A DNA stretch of 37,741 nucleotides from contig WRKR01000028.1 in the NCBI GenBank assembly GCA_009782175.1, positions 1 to 37,741 on the forward strand, in the 5' to 3' direction. The position numbers and the translations under genes are program-made. The notes under the pieces were generated by a model. The model had not been told where the DNA came from and ran no database searches. It saw nothing but the letters and a program-made list of their open reading frames with translations. This document shows positions 5,690 through 37,741 of the stretch, piece by piece; the stretch's first letter is position 1; every line of letters begins with the position of its first letter. The DNA is from Cystobacterineae bacterium (GTDB lineage Bacteria > Myxococcota > Myxococcia > Myxococcales > Myxococcaceae).

Positions 5690-8600
5690 TCAGGAAGCCA
5701 GGGCTTCAGGCGTGGCGACGTTGGTTGTTGGCGCTTTGGACGAGGCCTTTTTGCGCACCTTGTTTTTCAATTTGGACATAAAGCCGTCTATGAGCGAATA
5801 GACGACGGGAACAATGAGGAGCGTCAGCACCGTCGAGCTTATAAGTCCACCTATGACGACGAGTGCCATGGGCATGCGCATGGCGGCACCGTCGCCCTGT
5901 GCCAGAAGCATGGGAACCATGCCCGCTATCATCGCAATGCTCGTCATCAAAATGGGACGCATCCGAATGGGTGCCGCCTCGAGCAGGGCCTCGTGGGCAT
6001 TCTTCCCTTCTTCACGCAGTTGCAAGGTGAATTCCACCAGCAGAATGCCATTTTTCACGACAACTCCCATCAACATAATGACGCCGATGAGGGCGAACAT
6101 GGAGAGTGCCTGTCCTGTCACCAAAAGTGCCGTCACGCCGCCGATGAGGGCGAAGGGGAGGGCAAGCATAATGGTAAAGGGGTGGATGAGGCTTTCGAAT
6201 TGTGCGGCGAGGATCATATAGAGAAGGACGACACCCAAAATAAGCGCCATGGCGAAGGCGTTGAGGGTTTTTCCCATCTCCTTTGAGGTACCAGCAAAAC
6301 CGGCACTCACCCCCTCTGGAAGCTTTGCTTCGACATGCTCTGCCAAATAGGCCATCCCCTCACCGAGGCTATAGCCTTGGGCAATATTGGCAAAGAGGGT
6401 TATTTCGCGCTGCTTGTTGAGGCGGTTTATTTGCGCAGGCCCCTCAGCGGGAACAATGTCGGCAATATTCCGAAGCTCAACGAGTTGCCCGCTGGAGGAG
6501 AGAATGGTGAGTTGCCCCAGGGCCTCTTTGGAGGAGAGGGTAGCGTCCGCAAGCCTAAGTTTCACGTCATAGGACTCGCCGCCTTCGCGAAAACTCATGA
6601 AAGCGTCGCGTCCGAGGTATGAGCGAAGCATGGCCCCAACCTGCCCTGCCACGACGCCAAGCTGCGCGGCCCTCTCCCGGTTTATTTGAACGTTGTATTG
6701 TGGTTTTCCCGCCCTATAATTCATGTCTACGTCTGTGAAGCCCGGGTTTTTCTGCATTTGCAAAAGCCCTGCCTCCGCGGCCGAAACAAGCGTCGCAAAC
6801 TCACTTCCGCGCAGTGCATATTCCACCTCACGCGCCCTCATGCCGCTGGAAGCTGCGGCGCCGTCCTGAATGCTTAGCCGCACACCCGGGCGAGGCGTCG
6901 GGAGACTTTCTCTTAGCTGAATTTTGAATGTCTCCTGGCTCAATGCCCTCTGCTTTACGGGGAGCAGGTTGACAATGAGCTCTCCCTTGTGCACCTCTTC
7001 CAAAGTCCCCCCGCCTGCGGTGGCGAAAGTTTCAACCACGCCTGGCATTTTTCGTACGTGCTCCGCAATAAGGGCCAACTCCTTCTCGGTGTCCTCGAGT
7101 GTTGAGCCTTGTGGAAGCTCCACCGCCACCGTCAGCGAGCTTGTGTCATTTTTGGGTATAAAGGAAATTTTGAGGAGTGAGGCAAGCCCCAGTGTCAGCG
7201 CCAGCACGCCTATGGCGCCGCACATGACGAGGCCTCGGTGGGCAAGCACTTTGGCGAGGATTTTTTTATAGAAGCTTTCAAGCCTCAAGAAGCTTTGCTC
7301 AAGCCATACTGAAACGCGGTTGGGGGTGGCATGGCTGACTTCCTTTAAAACGCGGCCTGAAAGCATGGGCGCCAAAGTCATTGAAACCGCATAGGAGATG
7401 AGGACGGCAACGGCGACGGTGACGCCGAATTGATAGAAGAATTGGCCAGCAATTCCATCCATGAAGGCGACGGGGATGAAGACGGCGACAATGGCCAAAG
7501 TGACGGCGAAGACGGCCAGAGCAATTTGTCTGACCCCCTCCAGTGCCGCCTGCATGGGGGGCTTCCCCTGCTCCAAGTGGCGGACAATGTTTTCAATGAC
7601 GACAATAGCGTCGTCAATGACAAGGCCGATGGAGAGGGTTAAGGCCAGCATGGTAATAATGTTGAAGGTGAAGCCAAGCAAAGCCATGACGGCGAAGGTG
7701 CCGATGACGCTGACGGGCAAGGAAATGGCGGCGACGAGTGTAGAGCGCGCGTTGCGAAGAAAAATAAGCACCACGAGGACGGCCAGAATTCCACCAAGAA
7801 GCATGTCCTCCTGGACGGCGAGGATGGAGGAGCGGATGAATGTCGAGTTGTCGATGATGGTTTTGACGACAAGGCCCTCGGGCAGTTGCGCATTCATATT
7901 TTCGAGTGAGGCCTTGACGGCTTCGGCGACTTGGACGGTGTTGGCGCCTGACTGTTTGCGCACGTTGAGGGCGATTGCCGCCCCAAAGTCCGAGCGGGCC
8001 AAGCCGCGCGCCTCTTGGGCGCCGTCAATGACTGCCGCCACATCTCGGACGCGCACTGGAGTGCCGCCTGGGCTGGAAATTATTATGTTTCCTATTTCTT
8101 CAACGCTTTGCGCTTCGGCGGCAAGCCTGACGACGAATTCCTTGCCCTCCTGCATTGCACGGCCACCAGGAATGTCGACGCTTTGTGCGGCGAGTGCTTG
8201 GCTCAAATTCCCTATGGAAAGCCCATGTCCGCGAAGGCTTTGTGGCTCGACAACAAGTTGAATTTCGCGCTTGCGCCCACCAACCACGTCGACGGAGCCT
8301 ACACCCACTTGTGCTTCCAGTGCTGGTTTGAGAATGTCTTCTGCGGCTCGCGTCAACGCCTCTATGGGAAGGGGGCCGGTGAGAGAGAGCATGAGGATGG
8401 GGGCAGAGTCCAAATCTATCTTCTCGACAACGGGCATTTCAACGTCCTTTGGCAAATTCCGAAGGGCGCTTTGGATGCGATCTCTCACGTCCTGGGCGGC
8501 GGTGTCGAGGTTGGTTTCAAGTTTGAAGAAAACAATGAGTTGGCTGACAGAGTCGAGGCTGATGGACTTAAGCTCATCCACGCCATTGAGGGAGGAGAGT

Positions 8601-28165: not shown

Positions 28166-28238
<73 letters not shown>

Positions 28239-28357: not shown

Positions 28358-28391
28358 TTGACAGCGCACTAAAAGTTGGGTAACCGTTACC
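28358..28391 (+). promoter_or_regulatory. Putative integrase promoter with operator-like palindrome
   Basis: TTGACA (28358-28363), a 17-nt spacer and TAACCG (28381-28386) could be a promoter with a weak -10. The palindrome GGTAACCGTTACC (28379-28391) covers the -10 region, and a half-like GTTACC recurs at about 28416. This would fit repression by the integrase or the AlpA regulator. The integrase ATG is at 28454. Confidence 0.45.
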
Positions 28392-28453
28392 TGGATTTTG
28401 GCAGAAAAATTTTCAGTTACCTTGTTCGTCTTCCGCCAGTCACGAAAGTCCAT

Positions 28454-29677
28454 ATGGCCAGCAAGTTTTTGCTTTCGGACCTCCAAGCAAAGGCTCTCAA
28501 GCCTGGAGAGAAACGCAAGCGCCTCAAAGACGGGGGTGGCCTCTTCCTGGTGGTTTCTCCTTCGGGAGCGAAGTGGTTTGAGTTCCGCTATCGCTTTTGT
28601 GGGCGCGAAACGTCCATCGGTTTAGGTGGCTACCCTGAAACCTCGCTTGCCGAAGCCAGAATAAAAGCCGACGACGCCCGGAAGAAACTCAAGGACGGGG
28701 AAAACCCTTCTGCTGAAAGAAAGGCCGTCAAAGTCTCTGGAATGACTTTTGCGGAAGCTGCCGAAAGCTACCTCAAGACGCGCCAAGAAAGCGGACTCAA
28801 AGACACGAACGGAATCAGGCTGAGGCTTCAAAAGCATGTCTTTCCAGCCCTTGGAAAAATGCCTCTGAAAAGCATTAGCACTCCGCAAGTTTTGGAGGCC
28901 GTGCTGGCCATCAAAAAAAAGCGTGAAGAAATGGCGAAGCGATGCCGGACCTATTGCAACCAAATTTATCAGCACGCCATTGTCAGAGGCTGGACCGACA
29001 AAAACCCCGTGAGAGAGCTTGAGAGGCTCCCTGAGCTGAGAAGGGCCACGCCAGTGAAACACCAGCGAGCCGTCAAAACACCGGCAGAATTGGGCATGCT
29101 GTTGGCGGACATAGAAACGATTGGTCACACGCTGATTGGCAAGGCGTTGAAGTTGGCTCCGCACGTTTTTGTTCGAGCCTCGGAATTGGCGGGAATGCAA
29201 TGGACAGAGGTGGACTTCAAAGAATCTCTTTGGCGGATTCCTGCCGAGCGCATGAAAATGCCGACGCCGCATTTGGTGCCATTGAGCCGCCAAGTGAAAA
29301 AGCAGCTTGACGCGCTGCGTGAACTGACAGGCTGGGGACCTTGCGTTTTCCCTGGAAGCAATGGGGGGCAGGCACCCATCAACCCTGAAACTTTTCGAAT
29401 CACTTTAGGCCGCCTCGGCTATGGCCCCAAGGCTCTCGTCAATAGCTCGCACCACGGTTTTCGTTCTGTTGCCGCAACATTTTTGAGAGAGAAGGGTTTT
29501 GAAGGCGCATGGGTTGAGGCCCAGTTGGCGCACCAAAAAAGAGACAAAGTACAGGCCGCCTATGACTTCACGCAATACATTCCCCAGCGAAAAAAAATGA
29601 TGCAGTCGTGGAGCAATTATTTGGACAAGTTGAAAAATGAAGCCGCCAGGGGTGACAATGTTGCTGGGACTGGTTGA
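28454..29677 (+). CDS. P4-type tyrosine integrase
   Basis: The protein has 407 residues. The N-terminal arm-binding domain (DUF4102 type) shows LLSDLQAKALKPGEKRKRLKDGGGLFLVV and GLGGYPETSLAEARIKADDAR. The core-binding domain is near 100-190. The catalytic domain shows the first Arg in VFVRASELAGMQWTEVDF, the H-x-x-R box HHGFRSVAATFL, and the nucleophile region AAYDFTQYIPQRKKMM. It recombines att sites in tRNA-Lys. The ATG at 28454 is chosen to match family N-termini; the frame opens earlier, at a TTG at 28376. The stop overlaps the next gene by 17 nt. Confidence 0.93.
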   Translation: MASKFLLSDLQAKALKPGEKRKRLKDGGGLFLVVSPSGAKWFEFRYRFCGRETSIGLGGYPETSLAEARIKADDARKKLKDGENPSAERKAVKVSGMTFAEAAESYLKTRQESGLKDTNGIRLRLQKHVFPALGKMPLKSISTPQVLEAVLAIKKKREEMAKRCRTYCNQIYQHAIVRGWTDKNPVRELERLPELRRATPVKHQRAVKTPAELGMLLADIETIGHTLIGKALKLAPHVFVRASELAGMQWTEVDFKESLWRIPAERMKMPTPHLVPLSRQVKKQLDALRELTGWGPCVFPGSNGGQAPINPETFRITLGRLGYGPKALVNSSHHGFRSVAATFLREKGFEGAWVEAQLAHQKRDKVQAAYDFTQYIPQRKKMMQSWSNYLDKLKNEAARGDNVAGTG

Positions 29678-30607: not shown

Positions 30608-30814
30608 ATGAGCGAAAGAAGACTTTTAGCAAGAAAAGAAGTTTTAAATCGTCTCGGCGGCATCAGCAATTCGACGCTGAATCGGATGATTCTCCGGGGT
30701 GCATTTCCCCAAGGCCTGCAAATCTCTCAGCGCAGGGTGGGCTGGCCTTCCCATGTGGTGGACGAACACATTGAAGGGTTGGCCCAAGCGCAAGCCCCCA
30801 TCGGTGAGAAGTGA
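30608..30814 (+). CDS. AlpA-family regulator / excisionase-like protein
   Basis: The protein has 68 residues and is a single winged HTH of the phage AlpA type: RKEVLNRLGGISNSTLNRMI, then RGAFPQGLQIS and the conserved VGWPSHVVDEHIE. In P4-like islands AlpA proteins control integrase expression or aid excision. GGAG precedes the ATG at a good distance. It ends 9 nt before the primase gene, so both are read together. Confidence 0.88.
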   Translation: MSERRLLARKEVLNRLGGISNSTLNRMILRGAFPQGLQISQRRVGWPSHVVDEHIEGLAQAQAPIGEK

Positions 30815-30823
30815 GGGCCAACC

Positions 30824-33541
30824 ATGTCAGAAAATAAAACGCCGCCGGACAATGCCAACGGCGAGGAAACCGCAGAACGTGAAGCAACAATACAAAAGCT
30901 TTTGCCAGAGCTCAACGGCAAAACAGTTTTGGAAGCAGCGTTGGCCTATGCAAAAAGCGGCATTCCTGTTTTCCCTTGCAATCCGACAACCAGAGCGCCG
31001 CTAACATCGAACGGGTTCTATGGTGCAACGACGGACGAAAACCAGATTCGCGCATGGTGGAAAAAACACCCCAACACCCTCGTGGGAGTTCCAACTGGGA
31101 GCCGTTCTGGATTTATCACTCTGGATGTTGACCGCAAGAATGGCAAGGACGGTTTTCAATCACTCGCTGAACTCATGTCTAAGCATGGTGTGCAGCTGCC
31201 GCAAACAAGAACGCGCTCAACCCCACACGGAACGCACTTCGACTTCAAAAATGCAGATGGGATTCGCAACAGTGAATCGAAGCTTGGGCCTGGGTTAGAT
31301 GTTCGCGGCGAAGGGGGTTATATCATCGTTGCTGGAAAGACCTCCGAGGGTGAATATGTCGAAACAGACCATAGCGAGGTTGCAGACCTTCCAGAGTGGT
31401 TTTCTGAAGAAATAAAAGAGATAGAAAATCGCAAAAAACAAAAACGCCACAACTCAGCCGCGCAACCAACCGACAGAACGCTTGGCATGCCGCCTTATGT
31501 CAAGGCTGCTATTGACGCGGAACTTGCCCGGCTGACCTCTGCTCAAGAAGGAACCCGCAACTCGACATTGAACGCTGTGGCTTTTTCTCTTGGGCAGTGG
31601 GTGCCAGAGTTTTTGTCTGAATCAGAGGCACGTGACATGCTCCTTCAAGCGGCGCTGGCATGCGGGCTTGGAGAAAATGAAGCGCGCAAAACAATCGAAA
31701 GTGGCTTGGTTGCCGGTATGCGTGAACCTCGACAAGTGCCAGAGCAGGAAAAAAGCAACAACGCAGCCGACAGCGCCGACACATCCGACGATTCTACAGA
31801 AGCCGTGACGAATTCTCGTTTTCTTCCCACGCCACCGCCTGTGCCTTTGGAGGTTTTCCCGGATGATGTCCAAGATATGCTTAAAGAAGCTGACACTGCA
31901 TTCGGTGTCCCCATTGAAATTCCTGTGGCGTGCTTTATTGGTTCGTTGTCTGCGCTCCTGGGGCAGTCAAGACTCATCGCCATAAAAGACTCTTGGGGTG
32001 AAGCAGCCAACTTGTGGCTTGTCATTGTAGCCCCAAGCGGTGTTGGGAAAAGCCCAGCGCAGAAAGAGTTCTTCAGGCCGTTACACCGCCTTGAATACTC
32101 GACGAAACTCGAACATGACAAAGCCTCTGAGAAGTATCTGGAGGACCTTGCCGACTATAACGAGGCGAAGAAAGCAGCGTCGAAGAAGAGGGCTAAAGGG
32201 AATACTTTGGGGAGTATTTTTAAAGTTCCAGACAAACCCGAAAGGCCGACGCTGAAGTTGGCCACGCTGAACGACTTCACCGCCGAAGCACTGGCCGACG
32301 CGCTCAACGAGAACCCCAAGGGAGTGATGGTTTCCGTGGATGAATTGGCCGCGTTTCTCTTTGGATTGGACCGATACACCAACGCCAAGGGTGGATTCAA
32401 GGCTCAACTTCTGGCCACTTGGAGCCGAGGGCACTGGAGAACGAGCCGCTCCAGCAATCGCGCAAGGAATATTTTCGTTCCGAGTGCCTGCCTGTCCATT
32501 CTCGGGGGAATTCAACCGGGGATGCTGAGCCGAGTCTTTGAAGGCGGGGTGGGCGGAGTTGACGAAGAGTCCGGTTTTCTCCCCCGGTTTTTGTTTATCC
32601 GTGCCGTTGCCGAAGCTCCGTCATATTGGAGTAAGCAAGCTTTCTCTCAAACCTCCAAAGACTTGTTGGAGCGCATTACCGATGCCATGTGGCAATGGGG
32701 GGTGTCTGCAGATGGCGAAGGCATACCCGTTCCCGTAAGCGAGGAAGCCAGAGCGCGTTATGTGGCTTGGTATGACGAAATAGCGCGGGAAGCGTTCATT
32801 GCTCGAAATGCGGCCCCGCTCCGAAAACTGCAAGCTCATGCCCTGAGGCTTTGTCTTCTGTTGCATTGCCTTGATTCAGCTCTTGGTGGCAGTGACGGCC
32901 TGCACCCTGTGACTGAAGACACCATGCGCCGTGCTTTGCTTTTGGCGGATTGGCTGAAGGAGCACCAACGGCAATGTTGGCAACTCTTCAACCAAGAAAA
33001 AGCGAAAAAGCAGGCTGACCCTATTGAACGTGCCGTCATGGCCGTTGCGGTAGCCGAGGCTGCCAGCATTGAAGCGAGTGGGTGGCAAGTCGGCAACGCA
33101 GACTTTTACCCTCTTGTGAGAAAGAGAATGGACATGCCGAAGTTGACAGAGGAGACAATTGGCAAGGCCTGTTCTCGCCTGGGGTTGAAAGACATCAAAA
33201 TTGGCCCAAAACGGTTGAGGGGGTGGAGACTAACACCCGAGCTCATAAAATCCTTCAGAGCAACCGTCTCACCTGTCTCAACTGACTCAACTCATTGTGG
33301 CACAAATGGTTTTGAGCGAGACAGTAGCGGCTCTGAACCGCCTCAACCGTCTCACCCTTCTCTTCCAGGGCGAGACAGTAGAGACAGTGGCGAAATAGAA
33401 CTGACTCACGAAAAACAAGATAAATACCAAAGTATTGAGTCAGATGAGACGGTTGAGGCGGTTGCTGCGGAGGGCAATTCGGAATTCAAGGCCCCAACCC
33501 GCCCCGCCCAAAACACTCTGCCTGACCGGGCGAGGCCATGA
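30824..33541 (+). CDS. PrimPol (AEP) primase fused to DUF3987 helicase-like domain
   Basis: The protein has 905 residues. The N-terminal bifunctional primase/polymerase domain (about 35-190) has the metal pair D101/D103 in FITLDVDRKNG, the His motif STPHGTHF (H138) and GLDVRGEGGYIIVAG. A PriCT-like linker follows. The DUF3987 ATPase part has Walker A APSGVGKS at 403-410 and MVSVDELAAFL as the likely Walker B region. The C-terminal 80 residues are Ser/Thr/Glu-rich and variable. It should start and unwind the element's own replication. It overlaps the next gene by four bases (ATGA). Confidence 0.9.
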   Translation: MSENKTPPDNANGEETAEREATIQKLLPELNGKTVLEAALAYAKSGIPVFPCNPTTRAPLTSNGFYGATTDENQIRAWWKKHPNTLVGVPTGSRSGFITLDVDRKNGKDGFQSLAELMSKHGVQLPQTRTRSTPHGTHFDFKNADGIRNSESKLGPGLDVRGEGGYIIVAGKTSEGEYVETDHSEVADLPEWFSEEIKEIENRKKQKRHNSAAQPTDRTLGMPPYVKAAIDAELARLTSAQEGTRNSTLNAVAFSLGQWVPEFLSESEARDMLLQAALACGLGENEARKTIESGLVAGMREPRQVPEQEKSNNAADSADTSDDSTEAVTNSRFLPTPPPVPLEVFPDDVQDMLKEADTAFGVPIEIPVACFIGSLSALLGQSRLIAIKDSWGEAANLWLVIVAPSGVGKSPAQKEFFRPLHRLEYSTKLEHDKASEKYLEDLADYNEAKKAASKKRAKGNTLGSIFKVPDKPERPTLKLATLNDFTAEALADALNENPKGVMVSVDELAAFLFGLDRYTNAKGGFKAQLLATWSRGHWRTSRSSNRARNIFVPSACLSILGGIQPGMLSRVFEGGVGGVDEESGFLPRFLFIRAVAEAPSYWSKQAFSQTSKDLLERITDAMWQWGVSADGEGIPVPVSEEARARYVAWYDEIAREAFIARNAAPLRKLQAHALRLCLLLHCLDSALGGSDGLHPVTEDTMRRALLLADWLKEHQRQCWQLFNQEKAKKQADPIERAVMAVAVAEAASIEASGWQVGNADFYPLVRKRMDMPKLTEETIGKACSRLGLKDIKIGPKRLRGWRLTPELIKSFRATVSPVSTDSTHCGTNGFERDSSGSEPPQPSHPSLPGRDSRDSGEIELTHEKQDKYQSIESDETVEAVAAEGNSEFKAPTRPAQNTLPDRARP

Positions 33542-34192: not shown

Positions 34193-34269
34193 CGCTGCTC
34201 AAAAAATTTAGTTCCCAGAACATCCGAAGAAGGCTATGGTCATCTCGCTGCAGAGTTTTGTAGCTGGGC

Positions 34270-34459
34270 CTAGTAAACCCATTTAGTATTACATTATCAA
34301 CGAACGGAGAGAAGCCTTGCCGGCGGACCTTATCTCTTCGTTCAGCGTGTCTCACCTTTGGCGGTCCGGGTGAGGAACCGCAGGGTTCGCCGGTTTTTCG
34401 TTGATAATGTGCCGGATTTACTAGCTCATTTGGGCCGCCGTTTTTTTTGGCTCAAATGA
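34270..34459 (+). other. Highly folded non-coding region (possible origin or structured RNA)
   Basis: No gene fits in 34193-34493. Nested inverted repeats are present: CTAGTAAA (34270-34277) with TTTACTAG (34417-34424); ACATTATCAACGAA (34291-34304) with TTCGTTGATAATGT (34397-34410), 14 bp perfect; CCGGCGGACC (34320-34329) with GGTTCGCCGG (34384-34393), ten pairs with one G-U. Inside, GCGGTCC and GGAACCGC (34361-34381) compete with GAACC/GGTTC. A further 11-pair hairpin (34426-34436 with 34449-34459) has eight Ts in its loop. The fold could be the element's replication origin, a small RNA, or a leader for the following genes. Confidence 0.7.
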
Positions 34460-34493
34460 AACTGCCTGGCCTCTGCAGCATGGGAGGCTGGAC

Positions 34494-34922
34494 ATGTACG
34501 AAGAAGAGAATCTGAACAGATTAGACGAAGGCGCGTGCCTGGAGTTGTATGCCACCTATAAGCTCCTGGATTGTTTGCAGGAGGCGCATTTCTCGGATGC
34601 CGACAATGTGCGCCAGCGCGTCTTAGTCCTCACTGCGTTGCCTGGGGGGCTCGGCTGGCTGACAGACATTTTCACGGTGTTGACAGACGCTATCCGTGCC
34701 AAGGAGCGCGCATGTGTAGAGCAACATTTGGCGGCGCTTGTTGAAATGCTGAATGAGTCCATTGCTGAAGCCCAAAGTCTGGAGGCCCCTCCTGAAACCG
34801 TGGTGGAAGCGCCGTGCCCCGCCACAGTTGTCTATTTCACGGAGTCAGCCCCGCCCTCCGCTCCTGTGGCCTCTTGTATTTCAAGGGCGCCTTCTCTTTG
34901 GTTTGGTGCCCACCACATTTGA
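34494..34922 (+). CDS. Helical small protein, family copy 1 (novel family)
   Basis: The protein has 142 residues and no signal peptide. Residues about 18-95 are helical and align with the next gene's product: LLDCLQEAHFSDADNVRQRV and HLAALVEMLNESIAEAQSL match LDWLQDKGFEDAARLHEKI and QLTPIAQFLDEVIAQERAL, with a two-residue gap. The C-terminal 45 residues are Pro/Ala-rich and less conserved. I do not recognise the family. GGGAGG lies six bases before the ATG. It begins 35 nt after the folded region and ends 7 nt before copy 2, so the two are probably co-expressed. Confidence 0.7.
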   Translation: MYEEENLNRLDEGACLELYATYKLLDCLQEAHFSDADNVRQRVLVLTALPGGLGWLTDIFTVLTDAIRAKERACVEQHLAALVEMLNESIAEAQSLEAPPETVVEAPCPATVVYFTESAPPSAPVASCISRAPSLWFGAHHI

Positions 34923-34929
34923 GGCCTGC

Positions 34930-35337
34930 ATGCTTGCACAACTGAGTGAAGAAGAGAGGGCACTTGTGGCCCGGGAGTTCGACAATGCGGAGCGTATTTT
35001 GGATTGGCTTCAGGACAAGGGCTTTGAGGATGCTGCCCGTTTGCACGAAAAAATTCGGATTTTGGTAATAGTGTCAAAAGGGCGCCATTTGGCAAAGCTT
35101 GTGACGAAGCTTGAAGAGGCCGTCAACTCTGTGCAGGGAGGGGAAGGCGAGGCGAGGCTTCAGCTGACGCCCATTGCTCAGTTTTTGGATGAGGTTATTG
35201 CCCAGGAAAGAGCGCTGTCCGGCGAGTTGAGCGAGCTCATGGAAAGCTTGTTGGAACCCTATGCATGGCAAGCTCAGTCTTCGGCCACCAAGGAGGCCGC
35301 GCTTGAGGGGGCTGAAAGCACCAAGGAGGGAAAATGA
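34930..35337 (+). CDS. Helical small protein, family copy 2 (novel family)
   Basis: The protein has 135 residues, all-helical by pattern. A core of 91 residues from LQDKGFEDAARLHEK to EPYAWQAQ aligns without gaps to the chromosomal protein at 37106-37570, with about 35 identical residues by hand count. Shared marks are LQ-x-x-GFE-x-AA-x-L-x-EK, KLEE, EA-x-L-x-L, A-x-F-x-D and EP-x-A-x-x-AQ. The function is unknown; there is no catalytic-looking motif, so binding or oligomerisation is more likely than enzymatic activity. GAGG precedes the ATG at 34930. Its stop overlaps the start of the 33-aa membrane protein (ATGA), indicating coupled translation. Confidence 0.75.
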   Translation: MLAQLSEEERALVAREFDNAERILDWLQDKGFEDAARLHEKIRILVIVSKGRHLAKLVTKLEEAVNSVQGGEGEARLQLTPIAQFLDEVIAQERALSGELSELMESLLEPYAWQAQSSATKEAALEGAESTKEGK

Positions 35338-35629: not shown

Positions 35630-35646
35630 GTTCGAGTCCCTCTCGA
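35630..35646 (+). other. attR core
   Basis: GTTCGAGTCCCTCTCGA is an exact copy of 28218-28234 in tRNA-Lys. It marks the right end of the element, 100 nt before the stop of the rhomboid gene, which reads toward it. Confidence 0.85.
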
Positions 35647-37105: not shown

Positions 37106-37570
37106 TCACTCCAGTGGACTTTTCCCATATAAAAGGGTTGTTTTTTTGGGCCTGGGCTCTTCTGTATTTGAGGGGGAAATGGGAGAGGAAATTGAAATGG
37201 AAGCTGAAGCTTCAACTGAAGCCATGGTTGAAACCACAGCTGAAGCCTGAGCATGCGCTGCCTTTGGCTCCCACAAATTTTGGAGGAGCAGCCCCAACTC
37301 TTTGGCATATTGCGTTTTTTCAACAATGGCGTTGTCTACAAACTCGGCAAGCGCCATCAAGTGTAGCGTTGCCTCAGGTTGTCCTCTGTCTGCAAAGCGT
37401 ATTGTTTCTTCCAACTTCTTTCCTATTTTTTCTGCATAGTGCGCGCCGGATATTGCGGCCAAAGCTTCAAACTTTTCTCTCAACAAAGCAGCGCCCTCGA
37501 AGCCTCTGTTTTGGAGGCGCTTCAGCATGACTATTATAGCTGCTATATTTTCATTCTCAGTTTTGTGCAT
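37106..37570 (-). CDS. Helical small protein, family copy 3 (chromosomal side)
   Basis: The protein has 154 residues. The core LQNRGFEGAALLREK to EPKAAHAQ aligns gaplessly over 91 residues with element copy 2 (about 38% identity by hand). The C-terminal 50 residues are Ser/Ala/Glu-rich and probably disordered. The ATG at 37570 has GAGGG four bases upstream. It lies outside the att-bounded element, beyond the rhomboid gene, and 54 nt after a gene that enters from the window edge. It may be a resident counterpart of the element's proteins or a leftover of an older insertion. Confidence 0.75.
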   Translation of the reverse strand: MHKTENENIAAIIVMLKRLQNRGFEGAALLREKFEALAAISGAHYAEKIGKKLEETIRFADRGQPEATLHLMALAEFVDNAIVEKTQYAKELGLLLQNLWEPKAAHAQASAVVSTMASVEASASISISSPISPSNTEEPRPKKTTLLYGKSPLE

Positions 37571-37624
37571 GACGCCCTCGGCGCAAGAGAAAAAAAACAA
37601 CTCACGTTGCCTCTAAAAAAAGTT

Positions 37625-37741
37625 TCAACTCCAGTGAGGAGAGCCCTGAAAAGTTTCTGCAGCTCCCCCTTGTTTGGATTCATTTAAGCGTTCTGTGAGC
37701 TCGGCCCACATGGCGTCCATTTTCTCTTTGGGTATTTCCGT
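37625..37741 (-). CDS. C-terminal end of a gene cut by the window edge
   Basis: An open minus-strand frame runs from the window edge to a TGA at 37625, giving 38 residues (EIPKEKMDAMWAELTERLNE, then a Gly/Ser/Pro-containing tail). It is on the same strand and 54 nt before helical copy 3, so they may be in one operon. Too short to name. Confidence 0.4.
   Translation of the reverse strand, partial: TEIPKEKMDAMWAELTERLNESKQGGAAETFQGSPHWS

Follow-up and report, generated by a model that had tools for sequence, protein, structure and literature searches.

The window, that is, the whole 37,741-nt stretch of Cystobacterineae DNA analysed here, contains at positions 34270-34459 what is, by sequence and predicted structure, a C4-type antisense RNA together with its target leader. 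Very probably, the region 34212-34460 controls a small operon: a leader carrying the targets a1 and b1 is followed by a C4 RNA with matched a' and b', an arrangement best read as autogenous antisense silencing of the downstream cassette, on the pattern of P4 CI/seqA and P1 C4/a1b1. Three things can be read from the nucleotide sequences themselves: the C4 fold, the targets in the leader, and the way these co-vary over 33 copies in three genomes. Most catalogued C4 and CI RNAs come from Proteobacteria and the phages of that group. What we describe is a known kind of RNA in a new arrangement: amplified, provided with individually matched leaders, placed before cassettes without known family, and located outside the groups in which C4 has been catalogued.

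A strong fold with competing states

No gene is evident at 34193-34493, between the end of an HTH gene (34192) and the ORF start at 34494. A previous reading of this DNA, made from the letters alone (hereafter the sequence-only reading), had noticed more pairing at 34270-34459 than chance would give, and RNAfold bore this out: the minimum free energy (MFE) is -74.0 kcal/mol compared with -53.5 ± 4.2 kcal/mol in 200 dinucleotide shuffles (z = -4.93), none of which folded as well. The minus strand likewise folds strongly (z -5.1), because the region is an inverted repeat. Three nested stems are present as that reading had proposed, with lengths of 8, 15 and 13 bp instead of the 8, 14 and 10 pairs it had counted:

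34270-34277/34417-34424: outer nested stem, 8 bp (RNAfold), identical to the a1/a' pairing
34290-34304/34397-34411: middle nested stem, 15 bp (RNAfold), identical to the b1/b' pairing
34319-34331, plus strand, partner 34382-34394: inner nested arm, 13 bp with G-U (RNAfold), strong in some copies only
34426-34459, plus strand: 3' hairpin, 12 bp (fold); its 5' arm also serves as the 3' arm of C4 P1

Folded alone, 34360-34439 adopts the C4 cloverleaf at -40.3 kcal/mol. When the leader and the C4 RNA are folded as separate units, they reach -69.5 kcal/mol versus about -74.1 kcal/mol for the nested fold, and with a gap of just 4.6 kcal/mol the two are competing states, both plausible. The 3' hairpin and the C4 fold exclude each other, since the hairpin's 5' arm doubles as the 3' arm of P1. 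The fold at 34270-34459 is thus real without being a single rigid RNA. Given that a1/a' and b1/b' form the stem arms at P1-like spacing, the nested fold is the antisense-target pairing within one molecule.

The innermost nested stem was rejected as a general feature, since only some copies have it in strong form (cis -15.8 versus trans -14.3). So was the 3' hairpin as a universal switch; it is clear in most copies of the window's own genome (G000) and weak in many copies of two same-genus genomes (G085 and G086).

The antisense RNA matches the C4 family

At gathering scores, an Rfam scan of the window returned tRNA only and nothing at the fold. The C4 match surfaced only in the E-value mode of the scan: cmscan placed RF01695 (C4 antisense RNA) at full length on 34354-34445 with 38.4 bits and E 6.9e-6, below the gathering score of 45. 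The parts of the RNA are as follows:

34360..34439, plus strand: C4 antisense RNA (cmscan RF01695; local MFE equal to the C4 consensus fold; P1 covariation in 36 copies)
P1: stem closed by GGCGGTCC/GGGCCGCC
34375-34388: P2, GAACC-GCAG-GGTTC
P3: CCGG..CCGG, with b' in the loop; a' lies in the 3' single strand

The local MFE structure of 34350-34445 equals the consensus, a P1/P2/P3 cloverleaf that leaves a' and b' unpaired. The GGCGGTCC/GGGCCGCC pairing, initially taken for a pseudoknot, is its P1 stem. This stem begins with GGC; the C4 family is characterised by RNase P processing at a GG motif, to about 77 nt. Across 36 copies, seven of the eight P1 positions are paired throughout and the remaining one in 34, the other two showing G-G cells. 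Double changes of the G-C to A-U type convert GGCGGCCC/GGGCCGCC to GACGGCCC/GGGCCGTC and to GGTGGCCT/AGGCCACC. Compensatory changes among homologues, whose absence the sequence-only reading had named as evidence against its proposal, are abundant in the C4 stems as well as in the a/b pairings, and so do not refute it.

A leader with the targets a1 and b1

Upstream of the C4 RNA, the following elements can be placed:

34212..34240, plus strand: promoter-like TTCCCA-17-TATGGT, weak, upstream of the leader
34247..34264, plus strand: leader hairpin I (GCTGCAGAGTTTTGTAGC; leader fold), by position the first hairpin of the Rfam c4-a1b1 / isrK models seen in paralogue L048
34265..34281, plus strand: leader hairpin II, TGGG...CCCA, with a1 in the loop (leader fold); the same hairpin occurs in the c4-a1b1 model on L048
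34270..34280, plus strand: target a1 (CTAGTAAACCC), pairing with a' at 34414-34424; the outer 8-bp stem of the sequence-only reading
34290..34304, plus strand: target b1 (TACATTATCAACGAA), 15 bp with b' at 34397-34411; previously recorded as a perfect 14-bp arm
34302..34343, plus strand: leader hairpin III (GAACGGAGAGA...TCTCTTCGTTC; fold), overlapping the end of b1, where L048 has the isrK terminator-like hairpin

A stricter promoter scan returned no consensus promoter upstream of the window leader; many paralogues in G085 and G086 carry TTGACA-17-CTTAAT or similar at the corresponding place. The leader of L048 matches isrK (RF01394) with 33.9 bits (E 7e-6; cut-off 50) and c4-a1b1 with 24.5 bits, and the window leader matched neither model in the Rfam search. 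Phage P1 served as a control for the spacing: its annotated a1 and b1 precede the C4 start by 88 and 74 nt, those of the window by 90 and 70 nt. No convincing second target of the a2/b2 or seqC kind was found within 1.2 kb downstream of C4 in any G000 copy. Two of the three functions ventured in the sequence-only reading, a regulatory RNA and a leader controlling the cassette, pointed in the right direction: the region carries the RF01695 match, and target leader and C4 together lie upstream of the cassette.

Loops and targets co-vary across copies

In the window, a' and b' are complementary in cis to a1 and b1 of the same operon region. Predicted duplex energies were compared over 33 copies with a leader target, using 20,000 permutations. 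The combined a+b duplex amounts to -24.2 kcal/mol with a copy's own leader (cis) versus -15.0 kcal/mol with the leaders of others (trans), which 0 of 20,000 permutations reached, a count that is not a strict probability because the copies are related by descent and the energies are predicted. The own leader was the best target for 29 of the 33 copies (15 of 16 within G000, 14 of 14 within G085). Pairing of a' alone is unspecific, with the own leader best in 9 of 33, and most of the specificity is carried by b.

The combination of a' and b' differs in all 37 of 37 copies, and the C4 stems stay paired through compensatory changes. Closely related copies share 90% of their scaffold and 66% of their loops (57% expected for shuffled loops). 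The C4 cores of C35_33497 and C31_463 even have identical scaffolds at 47% loop identity, each matching its own leader.

Comparison with known C4-type systems and a proposed mechanism

The closest relatives are the C4 RNAs of phages P1 and P7 (RF01695; a1/b1 RF03163), with which the window shares the cloverleaf with a' and b', the upstream a1 and b1 at nearly equal spacing, and, as in P1 immI, a small gene downstream (icd in P1, a helical protein here). In contrast to P1, where b complementarity spans 7-8 nt, it reaches up to 15 bp here; and unlike in P1/P7 immI, no a2/b2 accompanies the ribosome site downstream of the G000 copies (within 1.2 kb), nor was an icd or ant homologue found. With P4 CI/seqA the window has in common an antisense RNA beside its leader target and a satellite-like island encoding an integrase and a primase, whereas it has an upstream target only, lacks a seqC-like site downstream, and carries another replication protein and cassette.

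Passages of PMC5320573 describe P1/P7 C4 as processed by RNase P from the operon transcript, with a'/b' pairing to the target mRNA. For the P4 CI RNA, passages of PMC4825925 report premature termination via pairing with seqA and seqC, and processing from the very leader that CI targets. The same passages present IsrK as a structural homologue of seqA and, for IsrK / STnc1160 of Salmonella prophage Gifsy-1, an order that resembles ours: a hairpin leader, a processed RNA in IsrK, then a small ORF (PMC4825925). The window leader differs in having no isrK match, and no anrP or antQ was found.

High copy number has a precedent in Acinetobacter baumannii, whose Group 1 C4-like sRNAs are described in passages of PMC5320573 as present in 21 copies in one genome, variable in their a' loops, processed and highly expressed. 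The many C4-like copies in one genome are a shared trait, and the surprise of a multi-copy C4 is limited accordingly; here, by contrast, a' and b' co-vary with cis leader targets, small helical proteins lie downstream, and the lineage is unrelated. Cis-matched, mutually distinct antisense-target pairs do not figure in the consulted passages of this literature.

By analogy, the transcript would start near 34246, and RNase P plus trimming would release a free C4 RNA of about 80 nt, which could then pair in trans with a1/b1 on new transcripts of its own locus. Pairing would alter the leader such that transcription halts before the cassette, as with P4 CI RNA on seqA, or expression might be lowered otherwise. 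Because no two copies share an a'/b' pair, silencing by a given C4 would be expected to stay mostly confined to the cassette of its own locus, or to an element that arrives with the same leader (immunity). Since no second target lies near the cassette, leader attenuation seems likelier than a direct block of the ribosome site; with neither a2/b2 nor seqC downstream of the G000 copies, a P1-style block of this kind is not indicated.

A multicopy family in one genus

RF01695 matches number 19 in G000, three of them above the gathering score (45.2-45.8 bits), and 15 and 3 in G085 and G086, respectively, with the best (49.1 bits) in G085. This gives a total of at least 37 C4 units in three genomes, nearly all with loops matched to their own leader and most of them ahead of a small helical protein. 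No C4 match was returned from 93 other genomes of the family or 192 other genomes of the phylum (wider sample), where stricter filters can lose weak matches. Sampled paralogues adjoin housekeeping genes (secA, trxB, gpsA, mnmA, gatB, tsaD, ychF). The gene neighbourhoods of three cassettes of G000 and G085 are only loosely alike, and their specificities differ.

The island and its cassette

The copy in the window lies within a 7.4-kb island that extends from a tRNA-Lys to a 17-bp repeat of the tRNA 3' end and encodes integrase, AlpA and PrimPol:

28218..28234, plus strand: left attachment repeat, the tRNA-Lys 3' end
28376..29677, plus strand: tyrosine integrase of the island
30608..30814, plus strand: AlpA-type regulator
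30824..33541, plus strand: PrimPol-DUF3987 replication protein of the island
34494..34922, plus strand: cassette gene 1, 142-aa helical protein without known family
34930..35337, plus strand: cassette gene 2, 135-aa helical protein, paralogous to cassette gene 1
35630..35646, plus strand: right attachment repeat, GTTCGAGTCCCTCTCGA

One or two small helical proteins, falling into four main sequence clusters, follow most C4 copies. The tested cassette proteins gave nothing above cut-off in Pfam, PHROG and NCBIfam and nothing in a defence library, and the A-type protein was not found in named genomes. The 142-aa protein is predicted to form a helical bundle (three-sequence alignment; pLDDT about 90 over residues 11-90), and a structure search of PDB and BFVD gave no significant hit. 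Relatives of the PrimPol among viral contigs, genome contigs and related genomes are distant, apart from one paralogue in the same genome.

Part of another cassette, comprising a complete B-type and a partial A-type protein, lies on the minus strand at 37106-37741 and is truncated where the contig stops. Several contigs of this genome stop within a cassette of this type, and contig breaks in these genomes fall beside cassettes as well as within them. A second tRNA-adjacent island (L100:6513-11759) encodes an integrase together with a DUF3987-like protein that shares 43% identity with the window PrimPol; it has a sub-threshold int-alpA RNA match (30.1 bits, 8054-8128) and no C4 match.

What the antisense locks may guard

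C4 and CI, through which phages P1 and P4 silence themselves, act as immunity RNAs in P1, P7 and P4, a classic case of RNA-based phage immunity. The window island, in which att repeats enclose the C4 copy along with integrase, AlpA and PrimPol genes, may accordingly be a live P4-like satellite carrying an immunity module, the other copies representing the remains of earlier integrations whose immunity types have diversified. We put this forward tentatively: no integrase was seen beside the other copies, the sampled ones are flanked by housekeeping genes, the second PrimPol island lacks C4, and no capsid or packaging gene was identified in the window island. A type I-like toxin-antitoxin (addiction) function, with C4 silencing a growth-inhibiting small protein and each copy having its own antitoxin specificity, seems to us rather doubtful. 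It would fit the one or two small proteins without known family after most copies, the unique specificity of every copy, and phage P1, where icd lies directly downstream of c4, is under its control and inhibits cell division, as does P4 kil. However, the cassette proteins match no known toxin or other family, and several cassettes encode two proteins.

Two further readings were weighed. The nearby PrimPol gene and the strong inverted repeats had led the sequence-only reading to consider a replication origin, recognised by the PrimPol-helicase. This found no support and is very improbable: sampled paralogues occur without a nearby PrimPol, the second integrase/DUF3987 island has no C4 element, and the co-variation follows C4 antisense-target logic while tolerating G-U pairs, as RNA would. 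Long inverted repeats without a gene also characterise retron msr-msd and integron attC sites, an identity to which we give next to no credence, as the region instead has a specific Rfam match to C4. That no reverse transcriptase or integron integrase lies nearby had already been remarked and was confirmed for the tested island genes, whose products are the integrase, AlpA, PrimPol-DUF3987, HTH and others without known family.

Beyond the C4-type control region itself, a small-genome genus may have converted the C4 immunity RNA of phages into many antisense locks that are orthogonal to one another, with 37 distinct loop pairs across three genomes. Most of these locks would guard one or two small helical proteins at places among housekeeping genes, and together they would form an addiction or immunity network whose scaffold changes far more slowly than the co-diverging loops and targets. 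One genus of another lineage offers dozens of naturally occurring pairs of antisense and target built on a shared scaffold. Since near-identical scaffolds bear unrelated loops, the specificity rules of C4 and a possible avoidance of cross-talk between paralogues are directly testable with existing pairs. Recurrence under a C4 lock also points to small-protein families.

Divergent copies and flanking repeats

Two orphan copies, C12_31292 (L038) and C56_9874 (L044), have a C4 without a matching leader target; a search for exact targets elsewhere in the assembly matched only their own complementary strand. These C4 RNAs are possibly decayed or trans-acting. At L045 (C15:58334), the 5' P1 strand of the C4 and the leader are swapped for unrelated sequence; its loops almost match those of C31_35080, whose leader is a possible target of L045. 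In L036 and L037, a 91-aa ORF comes after the helical protein, about 460-490 nt past C4, and reads like an ArsR-type helix-turn-helix regulator. Many C4 copies are immediately preceded by arrays of short GC-rich hairpins with A-runs between them; the arrays also occur at contig ends (first or last ~500 bp of the contigs, L029-L045), and G085 has similar repeats.
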